Assembly: GCF_035975855.1 (NCBI RefSeq)
Contig: NZ_CP109055.1
Span: 3,596,001-3,660,000 of the forward strand
Direction of reading: 5' to 3'
Length of the DNA stretch: 64,000 bases
Source of the DNA: Streptomyces sp. NBC_01304
Lineage (GTDB): Bacteria > Actinomycetota > Actinomycetes > Streptomycetales > Streptomycetaceae
The translations under genes and the position numbers were made by a program. The notes beneath the pieces are model-generated. The model searched no databases. It saw only the letters and a program-made list of their open reading frames with translations, and was not told the origin of the DNA. Of this stretch, positions 3,633 to 64,000 are shown one piece after another. The number at the start of each line of letters is the position of its first letter. Position 1 is the stretch's first letter.

Positions 3633-6095
3633 GTGGCGGAGCACGATCAGGTGGTGGTCACCTTCGAAGGCCGCGACTACGCGTTGACGCGGTCCCCGGG
3701 CGAGGTGATCCTGCCGGCACACGGGCGGATGATCCACCACGACGCCGCCTGCGCCCACCTCACCGACTCCGGCGACCTGCCACGGTTCCCGGACGCCGAC
3801 GGGCTGTTGTGGCGACGCCTCATCGACTCGGCGCCGTCCGACGACACCACGGGGCGTACCCGGTTCGCCCGTGCGCACGGATTGCTCGGCGGCTCGGGAC
3901 GGCCGCTCACCGCGGTGTGCAGCTGCGTACTCAAGCCGATCTCGCCCACTCAGGCGGAGACCCTGCGGCCGTGGCCACTCGACGAGGCGATAGCCGCATT
4001 CGACCGGGACAGCCAGCAGACGGTCCTCGACGAGATGAACACCCAGGCCGAGGAGATCCGCCACGCCTTCCCCTGGGAGGAATGGCCCGACCTGCCGCTC
4101 GAGCGGTACGCACTCGGCCTCGGAGACAGCAAGCAGACCAGGCCGTACTGCTACCTGATGGAGTTCGGCACCAACGTCCTGGGCAGCATCGCAGGCGGCT
4201 CCGCGATGAAGCACCTGATCTTCTGGCGTGCCCAGGAGGGCAGCTGGTGGCACGACTCTCGCTACCCGGACGCGGACCAGGCCTGGGCGGCCATCCGCAG
4301 CGGGCTCATCGAGGCCGTCACCGCCGCACGCGAAGGGCGGGTGGCCGACATCGACAACATCGAAGCGGTGCGCTCCGGCCCCGCCCTGGTGGCCAAGACG
4401 CTGCGGGTGTACGCCCCCGAGACCTCGCTCGCGGTCTACGCGGCCGACTGGGTGCGGCACTTCATCGCGCGGCTGACCGGTGAACCAGTGCCCAAACTGG
4501 AGCGGTTCGCCCTGCAGGCCAGACTGCAGTCGCTCATCGCCGAGCGGTTCCCCGGCTGGTCCCCCGACCTGGCCGTCCAGTTCCTCTACTGGTGGGCCGA
4601 CCCGAGCAAGATCCGCCAGACGGTGAAGATCGCTGCGGGGCACGGGGGCGAGCTGTGGGGCGAGTGCCGGGCGGGCGGCTACATCGCGATCGGCTGGGAC
4701 GAGGTGCCCGATCTGCGCTCCTACACCGACAAGGACGAGTTCCTCACCGCGTTCACCGCCGCCCTCTCCGAGACGTACAACGGCCACAAGTCCAAGATCT
4801 CCGCCAAGGCCAACGAGGTCTGGAAGCTGCTGAGTCTGCGTCCCGGCGACCTGGTCGTCGCCAACAAGGGCACCAGCGAGATCCTCGGTGTGGGACGGGT
4901 CACGGACGAGGGGTACGTGTGGCGCCCGGAGCGCCCCGACCACCGGCACACCGTGAGCGTGGAGTGGGACGAGAGCTATGCCGGCCGGCTCGACGAACCC
5001 GAGCGGTCGTGGGCCACCGTCACCGTCAAGGACGTGCCCGCTTCCTTGTGGGCCAAGATCCGGCGGGGACGCAGCACCCAGGCGGACTCCGAGCCCGCTC
5101 CCGAGGCCGAGGTCGTCGGGAGCCAGCCGCTCGACACCGAGCTGCAGCGCATCGCGGACGCGCTCGAACGCCGAGGCCAGGCCGTCCTTTTCGGACCGCC
5201 GGGCACCGGCAAGACGTACACTGCGCTGCGCTGCGCCGTCCGCTGGCTCGGCGAGCTTTCCGGCGCGCTGCCCGACGTCGACCCGTACGCGGAGCCGGGC
5301 AGCAGGGCGTACGGCGAGACATTGGACGCGCTCACCGCCGCCGGACGACTGACCGTCGTCACCTTCCACCCGAACTACGGCTACGAGGAGTTCGTGGAGG
5401 GGTTCCGCCCGGTCAGCCCCAAGGGTGGCACCGGCCTGGCTCTCGACCGGGTCGACGGCGTCTTCAAGCGGGTCTGTGCGACCGCGGCCGCCGACCCGGA
5501 GCACCCCCACCTCGTGGTGATCGACGAGCTCAACCGGGGGAACCTGCCCAAGATCTTCGGCGAATTGATCACTCTTCTCGAGAAGGACAAGCGGGGCCGC
5601 TCGGTCACGCTCCCCCTGTGCGGCGAGCCGTTCTCCGTGCCGCGCAACGTCTACGTGATCGGCACCATGAACACCGCCGACCGCTCCATCCGCATGGTTG
5701 ACGCCGCGATCCGCCGCCGCTTCGCCTTCCTCGAACTGCTGCCGGACTCCGGGCCCCTGCAAGGCTGCCACGTCGACCAGTTGCACCTTGCCGACCTCCT
5801 CGACGTCCTGAACGAACGCATCAGGACCCGGCTCGACCGCGAGAAGCAGATCGGGCACGCCTTCCTCCTGCCGAACGGCGCGCCCGTGGACTCCGTCGCG
5901 GAGCTTGCGGCGATCGTGCGCAGCGAGATCCTGCCGCTACTGCAGGAGTACGCCTATGACGACTACACCCTGCTGGCCGAGTTCCTCGGCGAGGAGCTCG
6001 TCGACCCTGAGGCGCACACTCTGCGCGAGAAGTCCGACGAAGGTCTGGTCGCCGCCCTGTACACCGAACTGCAGGTCAGGAGCGGACCGGAGTGA
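3633..6095 (+). CDS. mcrB: McrB-type GTPase subunit with EVE domain (type IV restriction)
   Basis: The 820-residue protein has three parts. Residues 1 to about 330 hold an unassigned region including MEFGTNVLGSIAGGSAMKHL. Residues about 337 to 475 look like an EVE/PUA-like domain (GECRAGGYIAIGWDEV), a fold that reads modified bases. The C-terminal half is an McrB-type AAA+ motor: Walker A GPPGTGKT at about 521-528, Walker B LVVIDELNRGNLPK at about 627, and the McrB signature GTMNTADRS at about 677. The GTG at 3633 follows a purine-rich AGGGGTGG. It overlaps mcrC by 4 nt, so the two are translationally coupled. Together they should cut DNA carrying modified bases, most likely phage or foreign methylated DNA. 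Which modification is read cannot be told from sequence. Confidence 0.9.
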   Translation: MAEHDQVVVTFEGRDYALTRSPGEVILPAHGRMIHHDAACAHLTDSGDLPRFPDADGLLWRRLIDSAPSDDTTGRTRFARAHGLLGGSGRPLTAVCSCVLKPISPTQAETLRPWPLDEAIAAFDRDSQQTVLDEMNTQAEEIRHAFPWEEWPDLPLERYALGLGDSKQTRPYCYLMEFGTNVLGSIAGGSAMKHLIFWRAQEGSWWHDSRYPDADQAWAAIRSGLIEAVTAAREGRVADIDNIEAVRSGPALVAKTLRVYAPETSLAVYAADWVRHFIARLTGEPVPKLERFALQARLQSLIAERFPGWSPDLAVQFLYWWADPSKIRQTVKIAAGHGGELWGECRAGGYIAIGWDEVPDLRSYTDKDEFLTAFTAALSETYNGHKSKISAKANEVWKLLSLRPGDLVVANKGTSEILGVGRVTDEGYVWRPERPDHRHTVSVEWDESYAGRLDEPERSWATVTVKDVPASLWAKIRRGRSTQADSEPAPEAEVVGSQPLDTELQRIADALERRGQAVLFGPPGTGKTYTALRCAVRWLGELSGALPDVDPYAEPGSRAYGETLDALTAAGRLTVVTFHPNYGYEEFVEGFRPVSPKGGTGLALDRVDGVFKRVCATAAADPEHPHLVVIDELNRGNLPKIFGELITLLEKDKRGRSVTLPLCGEPFSVPRNVYVIGTMNTADRSIRMVDAAIRRRFAFLELLPDSGPLQGCHVDQLHLADLLDVLNERIRTRLDREKQIGHAFLLPNGAPVDSVAELAAIVRSEILPLLQEYAYDDYTLLAEFLGEELVDPEAHTLREKSDEGLVAALYTELQVRSGPE

Positions 6096-58615: not shown

Positions 58616-60067
58616 TCAAACCCCGCCCGCCACCACCGCACCGCGCGGAATCCCCGTCCGCAGTTGCAGCGCCAGATTCACGTCCTCCGCCTCCGGTCGG
58701 TCGCGCCCCGCCAGGTCCGCGACGGTCCAGGCCACCCGAAGGACCCGGTCGAGGCCCCGCGCGGTCAGCAGACCCCGCTCCAGGTCGCACTCCGCCTCGT
58801 GCAGCGCTCCGGAAGCCACCTGCCAGCGGGTCCGCAACTCGTGCCCGGGAACCTCGGTGTTGGTGGTCCATGGCGTACCGAGCAGGCGCGCCGTGGCCCG
58901 GTCCCGCGCCTCGCGCACCCGGTCGGCCACCTCGCCGGTGCTCGCACCCTGCACCGCACTCCGCGTCAACTGGGCGCGGGTGACGGGCTGAACGGTGACA
59001 TTGAGGTCGACCCGGTCAAGGAGCGGCCCCGACAGCCGGGACTGATAGCGGCGGATCGTGGCGGGCAGACAGCTCCCCTCGAACTCCGTCGTGCACCGCC
59101 CGCAGGGGCACGGATTGGCGGCCAGGATCATCTGGAACCGGGCCGGCAGACGTACCACCCCCGCCGCCCGCGCGATCACGACATGCCCCGACTCCAGCGG
59201 CTGCCGCAGTGCGTCCAGCGCCTTGGAGCTGAACTCCGGTGCCTCGTCGAGGAACAGCACCCCCCGATGCGCCAGCGACACGGCCCCCGGCCGGGGCAGC
59301 CCCGGCCCACCGCCGACCAGGGCCTGCATGGTGGCCGAGTGGTGCGGTGCGCAGTACGGCGCCACCTCGACCAGTGGCCGCCCCGTCGGCAGGGTGCCCG
59401 CCACCGAGTGGACCGCCGTCACCTCCAGGGATTCCTGCCTGGTCAGGGGCGGCATGATGGCGGGCAGGCGCTCTGCGAGCATCGTCTTGCCCGCACCCGG
59501 CGGCCCCTTCAGATACAGATGGTGCCCACCGGCCGCGGCCACTTCCAGAGCGGTCCGCGCCTCGAGCTGACCGGCGACTTCGGCAAGGTCGGAGCCTGAT
59601 GTGTCCCGTGCCGCGGCCAGGCCGCCGCCCAGTCCCGCCCCGGGCGCCAGCAGCCCGGCGAGCCCATGGTCCGGCCGTCCGACGTCGTCCGGCTCCTCCT
59701 CCGGCACCGGCTCGTCCGCGAGCACCGCGATCAACTGGCGCAGGCTGCGCACCCCGAGGATCGAGACCCCCGGCACGAGCGCGGCCTCGGCCGCCGCCCG
59801 CTCCGGCACCACCACCTGCTCGTACCCGGCGTCGGCCGCCGCGAGAACGGCCGGAAGTACACCCCGCACCGGCAGCACCCGACCGTCGAGCCCCAGCTCC
59901 CCGATCATCACGATGTCGGCGAGCACCCGGGGGTCGATCCGCTCGGCGGCACCGAGGACCGCACAGGCGATCGCCAGGTCGAAGCCGCTGCCGCCCTTGG
60001 GCACCGAGGCAGGACTGAGCCCCACCGTGAGCTTTTTCTGCGGCCATTCGCCACCGGAGTTGCCCAC
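58616..60067 (-). pseudogene. comM: comM (YifB-family Mg-chelatase-like ATPase), 5' end lost to an insertion
   Basis: About 483 codons of a ComM/YifB ATPase remain: Walker A GPPGAGKTMLAERLP, sensor region VLFLDEAPEFSSKAL, cysteine-rich insert ANPCPCGRCTTEFEGSC and the C-terminal helical lid. The reading frame begins abruptly at NSGGEWPQKK, a motif that normally lies about 55-60 residues into the protein, and an in-frame TAA stands five codons upstream (60080-60082). The missing N-terminal Lon-like part should be on the far side of the inserted element. A truncated product from GTG 60067 is possible but lacks a good ribosome binding site. dprA follows 2 nt after the stop. Confidence 0.9.
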
Positions 60068-60118
60068 TTCCCTGTTGAATTAGCGTGTTGAAGCTGATCA
60101 AGAGGGGTGTCTCGTCGG
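60066..60118. other. Probable left junction of the integrated element
   Basis: Homology to comM stops at about 60066, and AT-richer sequence begins. TGTTGAATTAGC (60073-60084) and TGTTGAAGCTGA (60086-60097) form an imperfect direct repeat suited to recombinase binding. There are no terminal inverted repeats or transposase-type ends. The exact crossover and the matching right end are not visible. Confidence 0.6.
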
Positions 60119-61681
60119 GTGAGTTGGCGTGTGTTCTGGGTGCCAAATGACGCGGTACGACGTGGTGTGCGGAAGTCCGTGCTGGAGGGGTGGGAGGACC
60201 TCCCGTCTCGCGAGGATGCGGTGGGGGTACGGGCTGGCGATCCGATTTTCTTGTCTCCGGATTTCCGGGTGGATCCGCTGCTGTCTCTGTACGTGCAGTC
60301 GCGTCCTTTCAGCGGGTACACGGTCGAGACGAAGCGGAACTACACAACGGATATCGCCCTGTTGTTGACCGCGCTGTGGTCCCGAGGGAAGACGTGGCTC
60401 GAGGCGACGTCGAAGGATCTGGAGAATTACGAGGACTGGCGCCGTTTCGCTTCGGCGAACCCGGACCGTATTGGCGGCTCGAAGTGGGACCGGGAACTGT
60501 CCGCAATCATGAGTTTGTACTCGTGGGCGAAGAAGGCGGGCTATCTCACGCGCAATCCGGTCCTCATGAAGCAGGTGCTCGGGCGGAACGGGGAGAGCCT
60601 GCTGGTCCCCGAGCAGAGGGCGGATGACGCCCGACCGAGCAACGTGCACTGGCTGACGCCGAGGACCTGGCGCCGCTGGATCGACGTCGGGCTTCGCGGC
60701 CATACCCGTGAGGGGGCGCCGGAGCCGGGCTGGGTGGGCCGGCTGGAGGACCGCAACGTGGCTTTTGCTCGGACGTTAGTCTCCTCGGGCCTGCGGCTGG
60801 GCGAGGGCAGCTCTCTGCTGACGTTCGAGGTTCCGAAACGACGGCTGGGCGGCGGCCGTTACTACCGCGGCCAAGTCGCCGCCGAGGTGACTCGGTCGAA
60901 GAAGCAACGCACGTATTACGTCTCCTCCGAGGCGATTGGGGACGTGGAGTCGTACGTCGCGTCGTCGCGGGCCTGGGCGGTGCGGAAGGCTCAGAAGGCC
61001 GGCCGTTATGACCGTCTGCCCGAGATGCGGATGCTGTTGGAGGTGACCCGGGGGCTGAAGCCGAAGGTCCGTTGGTGCGATCGGAACGGTGTGATCGGGG
61101 AACGGGAACTCAACCTGCTGACTTGGCAGGAGAGGACGCTGCTGTTCGAGGACAGGTCGAATGGTCCTGAGCCGTTATGGCTCTGGTTGAACGAGCGCGG
61201 GCTGCCGTTCGAGCCGTCGTCGTGGGAGAGCGTCTTCCGCACGGCGAACGAACGCTGCGAGCGAGTACTCACCCCGCCCGAGCACCTGCGGAAGGACCCG
61301 CACCAGGTCTTCGCGCCCTACGCGACCCCGCACGCCGCCCGGCATTCTTTTGCCCTGTTCATGCTGGTTGTTCTGAACCATCTGCTGGATCAGCGCTACG
61401 GACTGACTCCGGAGGAACGCCGGGATTTCCGTCTGCTCTACGGCGATCCGTGGTTCATGGTCCAGAATTTGCTGGGTCACGCCTCGCGGGACACGACGGT
61501 CAAGCATTACCTCGCGCCCGTCGCGGATCTGCAACTGCGGGCGATGCTGGCCACGGCCGAGGATCGCATCGAGGCGCCGATGCCCGAGCTGGATGCCGTC
61601 TTCGCCCGCATCGCCCGGGAGTCGGAGGGCATCCAGGACATCGACGACCGCATGCAGCCCGCCACAGGCGGTGCCGCATGA
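60119..61681 (+). CDS. Tyrosine recombinase, first of a three-gene module
   Basis: This 520-residue integrase has a complete catalytic set: Arg226 in SSGLRLGEGSS, the beta-hairpin Lys in TRSKKQRTYYV, His405 and Arg408 in PHAARHSFAL, His454 in LLGHASRDTT and the nucleophile Tyr464 in VKHYLAPV. The N-terminal core-binding domain includes VETKRNYTTDIALLLTALWS. It is larger than phage integrases because of a long insert before the His-x-x-Arg box. GTG 60119 has AGAGGGG 11 nt upstream; GTG 60107 overlaps that site. It starts about 50 nt inside the junction with comM and overlaps the next gene by ATGA. Codon use is less GC-biased than in the flanking genes. Confidence 0.88.
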   Translation: MSWRVFWVPNDAVRRGVRKSVLEGWEDLPSREDAVGVRAGDPIFLSPDFRVDPLLSLYVQSRPFSGYTVETKRNYTTDIALLLTALWSRGKTWLEATSKDLENYEDWRRFASANPDRIGGSKWDRELSAIMSLYSWAKKAGYLTRNPVLMKQVLGRNGESLLVPEQRADDARPSNVHWLTPRTWRRWIDVGLRGHTREGAPEPGWVGRLEDRNVAFARTLVSSGLRLGEGSSLLTFEVPKRRLGGGRYYRGQVAAEVTRSKKQRTYYVSSEAIGDVESYVASSRAWAVRKAQKAGRYDRLPEMRMLLEVTRGLKPKVRWCDRNGVIGERELNLLTWQERTLLFEDRSNGPEPLWLWLNERGLPFEPSSWESVFRTANERCERVLTPPEHLRKDPHQVFAPYATPHAARHSFALFMLVVLNHLLDQRYGLTPEERRDFRLLYGDPWFMVQNLLGHASRDTTVKHYLAPVADLQLRAMLATAEDRIEAPMPELDAVFARIARESEGIQDIDDRMQPATGGAA

Positions 61682-63429
61682 GCCCGCGCGGACGCCGGGC
61701 GTCCTTGCCGCCGGCCGACCACGTCCGCCCCGAGCCGCTGAGCTCCAACGGCCTGGTCGTGCACCACTACAACAGGGAACAACGCGTTAAGGAGTACGAC
61801 TTCACTACTCTGCCGGTCGCCGAGCCGATGCAGCGCTCACTCGCGATGTTGTTCGCCGCACAGTGCACGCCCCATCGGTGGCGGTCGCACGGCTCGTCGA
61901 AGATGTATTGGCGCCAGCTGACGCTGTTCTCGTCGTTTCTGGCCAAGCAGGATCAACCTCCTGGTGACCTCGACGAACTCACCGGCGCCTTGGTGAACCG
62001 ATGGTGGCAGAGCCTGTCGAAGACTGCCGGAGGCTGCAACACCTTCGACTACACCGCCCGCCTACTGCGCGGTGACGACCGGTTGCAGTCAGGGCCGGTG
62101 GCCGACGCCCTGGCCAGGCGGGTCCCGCGGCCGAAGAGTCAGACACAGTCATACGCCGAGGCGGAGTTCGACCAGATCAGGACGGCGGCCCGGCGGATGT
62201 TCCGGGCTGCACTGTTGCGGATCGACGAGAACGCTCGTCATCTCGACCGGTGGCACCGGGGAGATTTCCCCCGAACCAGCCAGGACTGGATGGTCGGCGA
62301 AGCCCTGGAGCACATCGCTCGCACGGCAGATGTCCCGCGATACGTCCGCGGAGGCGACAAGAAGCGGGAGCCCCTGGCCTATTACCGGAGGATCCTGGGT
62401 GGTGGCCGGGCCGAGAACACGTGGCAGCGGCTGTTTTTGTCGCGGATGGAGGCGACCGCGCTCGGCATCCTCTTGCTGGCCGAGTACGGCTGGAACCTCT
62501 CCACCATCGACCGGGCCAACGTGCCTCAGGCTCTGCCGGATCAAGGCGAGGACGGCCATCCCACCTATCGGATTCCGGTGGAAAAGCGGCGTCGTGGTGC
62601 TGGCAACTACTTCGAGACCAGGAACGTCACCGACGACGGCGCCGACTCCCGCGGGCGTCTGGTCACGCAGGCCCTTCAGGCCACCCGGTTCGCCCGCGCC
62701 GCAGTCGAGAAGCTCGCCCCCGGCACCGACCTCTTGGTCGTCTGGCGCTCGAACCGGCCCGACCGCGACCGCGAGAATAGGGACCGGCATCCCTCAATCG
62801 ATGTGTTTTCCTTCGGGCTGTCTCACGACGATGCCCAGGAATGGGCCCAGCAACTGGGCTTCACGGGCTCGCCGTTCCAGCGGGGGCGGCGGACGGTTGT
62901 TGCGGTCGATCGGCGCGAGCCCACCCAACACAATCAGGACACCCATGACCGCTCATACGCGCTCGTCGACAAGCGCGTCCAGGCCGACGCGATCGAGGTC
63001 ATCGCGAGCGGGGCCGAGGACGCCGCAGCTCGAGCCCGCACAGCGGTGCTGCTCGCCCAGCTGACCGACGCGCCGGACCCCGAGCACACGGAGACCGCCA
63101 CGGCGGACTGCTCTGACTTCGACCACGGTCCCTACCCGGCACCGGACGGGGGCTGCGGCGCCTCCTTCCTGATGTGTCTGGGCTGCGAAAACGCGAGCGT
63201 TCACCCGGGGCATCACCCCCGCCTGACCCACCTGCACCACGCACTCGGCAACCTCCGCTCGGTTCTGCCCACTCGCACCTGGGCGAAGGACTGGGGCGAT
63301 GCTCACGCTCAGCTAGATGACCTGAAGGTCAAGCTCGGCGACGGGACGTGGGAACAGGGTCTTGCCCGCGTCACGGACGCCGACCGTGACCTCATCGACC
63401 TGTTGCTGAACGGAAGCCTCGACACGTGA
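61678..63429 (+). CDS. Recombinase-like protein, second of the module, catalytic residues degenerate
   Basis: This 583-residue protein resembles an integrase in overall order: a SAM-like N-terminal domain (SKMYWRQLTLFSSFLAKQ, residues about 75-150), then a probable catalytic-like fold with EYGWNLSTIDRANVP where GLRxxEL is expected. I cannot place the Arg, His-x-x-Arg and Tyr set, so it may be an accessory subunit. Near residues 478-525 lies a Cys/His-rich stretch (GGCGASFLMCLGCENAS, HPGHHPRLTHLHH) that could bind zinc. It overlaps both neighbours by 4 nt, so all three are made together. Confidence 0.75.
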   Translation: MSPRGRRASLPPADHVRPEPLSSNGLVVHHYNREQRVKEYDFTTLPVAEPMQRSLAMLFAAQCTPHRWRSHGSSKMYWRQLTLFSSFLAKQDQPPGDLDELTGALVNRWWQSLSKTAGGCNTFDYTARLLRGDDRLQSGPVADALARRVPRPKSQTQSYAEAEFDQIRTAARRMFRAALLRIDENARHLDRWHRGDFPRTSQDWMVGEALEHIARTADVPRYVRGGDKKREPLAYYRRILGGGRAENTWQRLFLSRMEATALGILLLAEYGWNLSTIDRANVPQALPDQGEDGHPTYRIPVEKRRRGAGNYFETRNVTDDGADSRGRLVTQALQATRFARAAVEKLAPGTDLLVVWRSNRPDRDRENRDRHPSIDVFSFGLSHDDAQEWAQQLGFTGSPFQRGRRTVVAVDRREPTQHNQDTHDRSYALVDKRVQADAIEVIASGAEDAAARARTAVLLAQLTDAPDPEHTETATADCSDFDHGPYPAPDGGCGASFLMCLGCENASVHPGHHPRLTHLHHALGNLRSVLPTRTWAKDWGDAHAQLDDLKVKLGDGTWEQGLARVTDADRDLIDLLLNGSLDT

Positions 63430-64000
63430 CCACCGCACCTGAGGTTGACCCTTATTGCCTCGCCCTGCCCACGCCCGCCACGCTCGTGGTTCCCGGACAC
63501 CGCGTCGTTGCTGTTCATGCTCATCTCAACAACCAGTACGCGGATCCGGTCTGGTCCTTGGCCCCGCTCACCGACAAGCCGAGCGCGACCAAGACCACGA
63601 TCCTTTGGAGCAACTGCCCTCCGGTCTTCCAGGACGAGATACGACTGATCGCCTGGACCATGATCAACGGCCAGCTCAGACCCACATACGTCAAAGAACG
63701 AGGCAACCGGTTCCGCTCCCGCCTCGGCGGCGAGCGCACCGCCGAGACGGTGCGCGACTGGTCGCACTTCGCGACATGGCTGACCAAGCGGGACATCACT
63801 TCCCTCGCGTCCTGCAACACCACGGTGCTGCAGGAGTACGCCCTGCACCTGAACGAGAAGTACTCCCGCCGGGACCGCGTCGAACGCATCCTGGGCGCCT
63901 TGACGCGGCTCTGGGCCTTCGGTGAGCTCTCCGCCCGTCCCACCGGCATCGCCCGGCCGCCCTGGGACGAGTTGGGAGTGGACGATTACCTCCCGGCCGC
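63426..64000 (+). CDS. Third recombinase-type protein of the module, partial
   Basis: Translation from GTG 63426, which overlaps the previous stop (GTGA), stays open to the window edge for 191 codons. It has a core-binding-like helical region (VRDWSHFATWLTKRDITSLA, LQEYALHLNEKYSRRDRVER). The catalytic domain would be outside the window. Position and coupling make it the third member of a recombinase trio. I base this on my own translation of the sequence, since other frames here are broken. Confidence 0.7.
   Translation, partial: MTTAPEVDPYCLALPTPATLVVPGHRVVAVHAHLNNQYADPVWSLAPLTDKPSATKTTILWSNCPPVFQDEIRLIAWTMINGQLRPTYVKERGNRFRSRLGGERTAETVRDWSHFATWLTKRDITSLASCNTTVLQEYALHLNEKYSRRDRVERILGALTRLWAFGELSARPTGIARPPWDELGVDDYLPA

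Follow-up and report, generated by a model that had tools for sequence, protein, structure and literature searches.

A complete, cargo-free four-gene recombinase element that splits comM in Streptomyces sp. NBC_01304, with relatives in comM, comEC and dprA

Near the right edge of the 64,000-nucleotide stretch of Streptomyces sp. NBC_01304 DNA analyzed here (the window; G000:C1:3596001-3660000 of a 10.99-Mb genome), the comM gene is split by a mobile element. Table 1 presents an overview of the features. The element is complete at 6,008 base pairs (bp; C1 3656068-3662075), beginning at window position 60068 and crossing the right edge of the window. On its left, comM homology on the minus strand starts at NSGGEWPQKK, with an in-frame stop upstream, and abuts DNA that is not comM. 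The 5' part of comM, recognized by a ChlI match, lies on the far side of the element just past the window and is followed by a yraN-like gene. Since this 5' part was found 6 kb away, truncation of comM without an insertion is ruled out; the comM site is uninterrupted in 36 of 36 same-genus relatives. Besides comM, the genome has two more PF13541 matches above cut-off, both located elsewhere.

Four genes make up the element. Open reading frames (ORFs) 1 to 4 each share four bases with the next, ATGA between ORF1 and ORF2 and GTGA between ORF2 and ORF3. ORF1 starts 39 bp inside the left element end, and from the ORF4 stop to the right end there are 113 bp, with no cargo. The ends, located by eye and with a weight matrix, are imperfect 24-bp terminal inverted repeats in which 19 of 24 positions are alike (counted on both ends); the terminal sequences are conserved across the element family. 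An inverted-repeat search with generic seeds returned GC-rich noise. Collectively, these features describe what is very probably a complete, cargo-free, site-specific transposon that split comM, its operon encoding two active-looking recombinases, an incomplete partner and a helper. A sequence-only reading of this DNA had reported the interrupted comM frame, a complete tyrosine recombinase beside it and the two gene overlaps, and had looked for the comM 5' part to the right and for an empty site in related strains, all of which is borne out, as is its view that a recombinase element and not a Tn7-like one entered comM. Other parts of its interpretation are not supported: the supposed trio is followed by a fourth gene, the third gene runs to 706 amino acids (aa), and both the cargo expected past the right edge and the lack of terminal inverted repeats give way to the ends described above.

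Table 1. Features of the split comM locus (window positions unless C1 is given)
Feature	Position	Strand	Remarks
comM 3' fragment (ChlI and following domains)	58616..60061	-	PF13541 match; 5' fragment at G000:C1:3662079-3662177
attL 6-bp spacer GCCCAC, non-native	60062..60067	.	encodes Gly in comM; 29 relatives: Val 27, Ala 2
Left terminus TTCCCTGTTGAATTAGCGTGTTGA, imperfect inverted repeat of right terminus	60068..60091	.	right terminus ends at C1 3662075, outside window
ORF1, 524 aa tyrosine recombinase, full R..HxxR..H..Y set, IntA/GinA position	60107..61681	+	
ORF2, 583 aa, predicted recombinase-fold protein without Arg I and His, C-terminal Cys cluster, Tfp-like	61678..63429	+	
ORF3, first part, large tyrosine recombinase (R, K, R, H, Y), 706 aa	63426..64000	+	continues to C1 3661546
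ORF4, 139 aa	C1 3661543-3661962, outside window		then right terminus and comM 5' part

ORF1 has an above-cut-off match to an integrase SAM-like family and a weak one to the catalytic family, and its R230, H409, R412, H458 and Y468 are kept in 18 of 18 aligned sequences. ORF3 has no Pfam or NCBIfam family match; its R361, K395, R501, H523 and Y533 are kept in all 19 aligned sequences. ORF2, also without a family match, reads in the alignment as Asn273 at the Arg I position and has no conserved His, while all 18 aligned sequences keep Tyr427 and Cys478, 493, 500 and 503 unchanged. The missing catalytic set and the C-terminal Cys/His cluster, again from the alignment, agree with what had been noticed from the sequence alone. 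The first Foldseek matches of the ORF2 model (predicted local distance difference test, pLDDT, 80) are the Tn1549 integrase, Cre and lambda integrase (E 0.07-0.3), and that of the ORF3 model is Cre. These models suggest recombinase folds for both proteins, and ORF2 probably binds the element ends or the target. From weak family matches, ORF4 may combine a helix-turn-helix-like start with a predicted coiled coil. Four-gene operons of the same order are carried by plasmids Serratia pCC119 and Paraburkholderia pBPHYT01, and profile comparison with them, gene by gene, gave 99.9% for ORF1, 98.2% for ORF2, 99.9% for ORF3 and 84% for ORF4, against 0.5% for a control comparison of ORF2 with ORF3. Three of these results count against the assignments: the ORF3 match to Cre is modest (E 1.3e-3, query template-modeling score, TM, 0.28), the ORF2 matches are weak (best E 0.068, query TM 0.28), and the ORF4 match to the plasmid operons is modest.

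The same genome holds a second copy of the element, whose ORF3 (C1 9180257-9182374) is identical to that of the comM copy. The two copies, own1 and own2, measure 6,008 and 6,007 bp and are alike except for a single indel and a single substitution close to the right end. The second copy splits a GAF-domain gene (PF01590), and the 6-bp spacers of the left and right junctions (attL/attR) are swapped between the two, reading GCCCAC/GACCAC in the comM copy and GACCAC/GCCCAC in the GAF copy. Direct descent of either copy from the other would imply that the 6 bp on the attR side travelled with the mobile form. Elsewhere in the genome, a third four-gene set (L037, G000:C1:9606000-9620000) is divergent and apparently broken, with an ORF3 about 31-33% identical.

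Uninterrupted genes reveal which spacer is native. Base 2 of the comM spacer in 29 relatives is A in 27, G in two and C, the attL state, in none; since it is A or G and never C, the comM copy has a native attR and a foreign attL. Both ends were read in 30 elements, with equal spacers in 15 and unequal spacers in 15. Seven of the 30 lie in comM or comEC (own1, L150, L212 with L118, L130, L171, L183 with L123, and L056 with L125), and in these attR is native in 7/7 and attL foreign in 6/7. For the both-end comEC cases, the conserved Asp-Val/Ile before GQGD comes from attR in four of four and from attL in none of the four. Strand-biased circularizing integrative elements (SEs) are described the other way round, with the target 6 bp staying at attL and the donor 6 bp passing to attR, and Tn554-related elements are said, on the authority of others, to resemble SEs in that a copy of the left 6 bp ends up on the right of the new insertion (both from the available sections of PMC10214605). 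Among the comM and comEC cases with both ends and unequal spacers, the SE rule is reversed in 6/6. As far as the junction sequences indicate, the spacer polarity would thus be opposite to the published SE/Tn554 rule, with the native 6 bp at the ORF4 end and the foreign 6 bp at the ORF1 end.

Several observations weigh against this polarity. Half of the both-end elements (15/30) have identical spacers and are uninformative. The attL spacer is native-like in one of nine comM elements (L150, perhaps also L152) and in two of ten comEC elements (L179 and L187, attR not read), the latter state being permitted by the polarity rule if the source was another comEC. At the GAF site, all 29 rows of homologues (about 37-50% identical) show V, L, M or I, while attR gives Ala and attL gives Asp, and the native state is less sure there. 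The broader expectation that attL records the previous address of an element yielded 7 exact matches across the family against a shuffled mean of 13.0, with 4882 of 5000 shuffles reaching the observed value; this null is crude because shuffles can produce same-target matches, and the pairs that do fit (own1/own2; L173 with L175) are anecdotes. Finally, circle and transposition alike are inferred here from the sequence.

A mechanism in keeping with a native attR can be proposed. The four proteins may pair the two inverted ends, and a circle or copy could then form that carries the 6 bp adjoining the ORF4-side end. Insertion at the target core would follow via a 6-bp staggered exchange, such that the junction on the ORF4 side would retain the target's own 6 bp and the one on the ORF1 side would receive the imported 6 bp. 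The circle, the mode of copying and the role of each protein are all inferred.

Within the genus, ORF3 matches at E up to 1e-10 occur in 84 of 295 genomes (this one included, and fragments among them). A scan of named genomes found 178 relatives, and the best 80 of the 178 include hosts from Streptomyces, Kitasatospora, Actinomadura, Nocardia, Mycobacterium, Mycolicibacterium, Amycolatopsis, Crossiella, Kutzneria, Prauserella, Saccharothrix, Arthrobacter, Sinomonas, Actinoplanes, Trebonia and others. All four genes were matched in 18 of the first 20 relatives examined, a few of which contain internal stops, as in ORF3 of L038; the exceptions are L041, without an ORF1 match, and L057, with a broken ORF1 and a partial ORF2. 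Actinobacterial plasmids carry relatives as well, among them Rhodococcus opacus pCP105 with all four genes matched. Left ends were called in 75 of the best 80, and adding 30 loci collected earlier and both own copies brings the number to 107; removal of 15 duplicates left 92 distinct ends, and since the flank is too short in two of them, 90 elements with readable flanks remain.

Among these 90 elements (the two own copies included), nine are in comM, ten in comEC and three in dprA, 22 in all, at one fixed point per gene. Insertions in comM and comEC were found in Streptomyces, Kitasatospora, Actinacidiphila, Trebonia and further genomes of the same genus as the window. Some of the assignments were made by eye, namely comM in L151, L152, L208, L209, L212 and the left side of L150, while the dprA calls rest on reading together with the right-hand dprA parts of L119 and L137, the left parts of L119 and L139 having no Pfam match and the right part of L139 falling outside its locus. 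Other targets are a GFA-family gene, an ATP-dependent DNA ligase (a label that combines two different sites), an AAA_33 kinase, a VanX-like gene, DUF2637 and single genes, and many targets are unnamed; labels beyond comM, comEC and dprA were given by eye from frames chosen by GC content at third codon positions, with Pfam support for some. DNA-processing genes seem to be frequent among the targets. The L154 flank (Kutzneria) reads by eye as a DnaE-like polymerase gene, and that of L045 encodes a ligase-type helix-hairpin-helix (Pfam HHH_2). The target arms gave no clear consensus. In one genome, G142:C26 (L039, L118, L119), a family element of about 20.9 kb in comM is accompanied by a divergent one in the neighboring dprA.

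A target-like gene follows ORF4 in two of 27 elements, which argues against any general "target repair" cargo. One is L185 (= L042), which is inserted in an MFS transporter gene and whose own MFS gene shares 43% identity with that target across 143 aa; the other is L053, with a GFA-like gene close to its right end.

On a quick tree built from 91 ORF1 rows (without L169; some branches are long, L135 and L161 among them), the minimum number of changes is four for comM, six for comEC and two each for dprA, the AAA_33 kinase and PIG-L, while the GFA, ligase, VanX, DUF2637 and zinc-finger targets need one change each; the target groups were named after the data were seen, and a change may be a gain or a loss. 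The tree rejects a single clade for comM (p 8.9e-62), for comEC (p 6.8e-70) and, marginally, for dprA (p 0.028). On this tree, targeting of comM and comEC is therefore not the mark of one lineage, in line with the earlier suggestion that comM was chosen independently, nine of the 90 elements sharing this comM point. Junction patterns were found for comM in at least two and for comEC in at least five of 295 own-genus genomes, counts that are lower bounds because some comM variants, that of L152 for example, escape the pattern.

Two explanations for these targets deserve consideration. The first, to which we give an even chance, is that competence genes are safe havens, merely widespread, conserved at the DNA level and dispensable in their hosts. 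Insertion occurs in conserved codon stretches (NSGGEWP in comM, CDVGQGD in comEC), and the other nameable targets are likewise ordinary conserved families; however, safe havens alone leave the recurrence in one pathway unexplained, and five other multi-element targets need only one change each. The second, possible but somewhat less probable, is that loss of competence genes is selected, the element guarding itself against removal by transformation with clean DNA. Consistent with this are the 22 elements at one point per gene, the repeated changes on the tree with one clade rejected (for dprA marginally), and a distant four-gene element (L145:3050-11017, about 30% identity) that splits dprA at a point different from that of L119, L137 and L139. 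That other elements disrupt comM and comEC has already been published, as has the proposal that such elements are thereby protected (PMC4774983, in the portion available). Against selection stand the DNA ligase, kinase, GFA-family, VanX-like and other targets, the two changes also needed for the AAA_33 kinase and PIG-L, the inability of parsimony to separate gain from loss in groups named after the fact, and the counts of at least two (comM) and at least five (comEC) of 295 genomes with the junction patterns. In addition, nothing in the literature consulted shows natural transformation in Streptomyces, and to our knowledge the process is not known in these hosts. Selection for breaking DNA uptake is thus plausible but unproven, and the lineage's liking for DNA-uptake genes is striking and still unexplained.

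By description, SEs and GInts are the nearest four-gene systems in the literature consulted. The gene order intA-tfp-intB-srap with a dead protein second, the imperfect inverted ends, the 6-bp spacer and the few fixed targets are common to SEs and the present element, with the difference that SEs are found in Gammaproteobacteria and the element here is actinobacterial and 6.0 kb long without cargo; the comparison is one of published description (PMC10214605, in part). The authors of that work did not find SE Tfp or Srap outside Gammaproteobacteria, according to the sections available. GInts share a four-gene recombination operon of three recombinase-type proteins and a small GinD-like helper, a 6-nucleotide exchange and site specificity, but their defective protein is GinC, where here it is the product of the second gene, and they reportedly carry 2.5-70 kb of cargo, where here there is none; actinobacteria are not named as hosts in the available part of PMC5385486, and the comparison again is one of description.

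Turning to actinobacteria, Van Houdt and others (2012; PMC3414803) defined Tn554-related transposons from hosts including Streptomyces and Mycobacterium, and beyond that article no other publication on such elements in actinobacteria was found in the open-licence literature. As the accessible portion describes them, these transposons similarly pair an abnormally long recombinase of 611-828 aa with a shorter one, usually have a TnpC-like third gene and sometimes occur in two identical copies. Their two recombinases are adjacent and the shorter is about 350 aa, whereas ORF1 has 524 aa and is not adjacent to ORF3; that portion names no third recombinase-type protein between the two, and no ends, targets or polarity. 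Some of those loci may belong to the present family; the sequence comparison covered one plasmid listed in a table of the same article, pNOCA01, which has a relative (L240) with an ORF2 match and an ORF1 fragment only. Tn554 itself, in the descriptions used here, encodes TnpA, TnpB and TnpC only and copies 6 bp from left to right, whereas here the copying would be reversed and ORF2, without a Tfp counterpart in Tn554, stands between ORF1 and ORF3, also in the aligned relatives; plain Tn554 membership is rejected on gene number, protein sizes and the dead protein. Recombinase-in-trio (RIT) elements likewise have several recombinases in a row, but the partial accounts available give three proteins of 315-410 aa, all with the catalytic Tyr, 34-bp repeats and no fourth gene. 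With proteins of 524, 583, 706 and 139 aa and an ORF2 that has the Tyr but neither Arg I nor His, RIT membership is rejected too, and the earlier remark that the protein sizes fit neither RIT nor Tn554 holds.

It is unlikely that the element is simply one of the known SE, GInt or Tn554-related kinds and that its apparent reversed polarity comes from misread native states, for although the multi-recombinase logic, the dead protein in second place, the imperfect inverted ends and the 6-bp spacer are shared, and Tn554-related transposons of actinobacteria are already published (PMC3414803, in part), attR is native in all seven and attL foreign in six of the seven both-end comM/comEC cases, and the SE report, in its available sections, describes left-to-right copying and Tfp and Srap unseen outside Gammaproteobacteria (PMC10214605). 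The element belongs with the SE/GInt/Tn554 kind, and what is new is the reversed spacer polarity.

The most far-reaching interpretation, that of a large actinobacterial four-gene lineage with a strand bias opposite to that of SEs and Tn554 that has repeatedly evolved to cut comM, comEC and dprA, can be offered only tentatively and is rather doubtful in its full extent. If true, it would imply that these hosts undergo natural transformation to a degree that threatens mobile elements. For actinobacterial multi-recombinase elements, the ends and targets are now defined and a near-identical pair within one genome is at hand, along with a polarity opposite to that described for SE/Tn554-related elements, and the recurrence of comM, comEC and dprA makes natural DNA uptake by streptomycetes and their kin a directly testable question. 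Minimal 6-kb elements should be tractable in laboratory Streptomyces. Near-minimal elements occur in other genomes as well, with L150 (6,045 bp) in comM, L171 (6,035 bp) in comEC and L189 (5,817 bp) in a DNA ligase gene.

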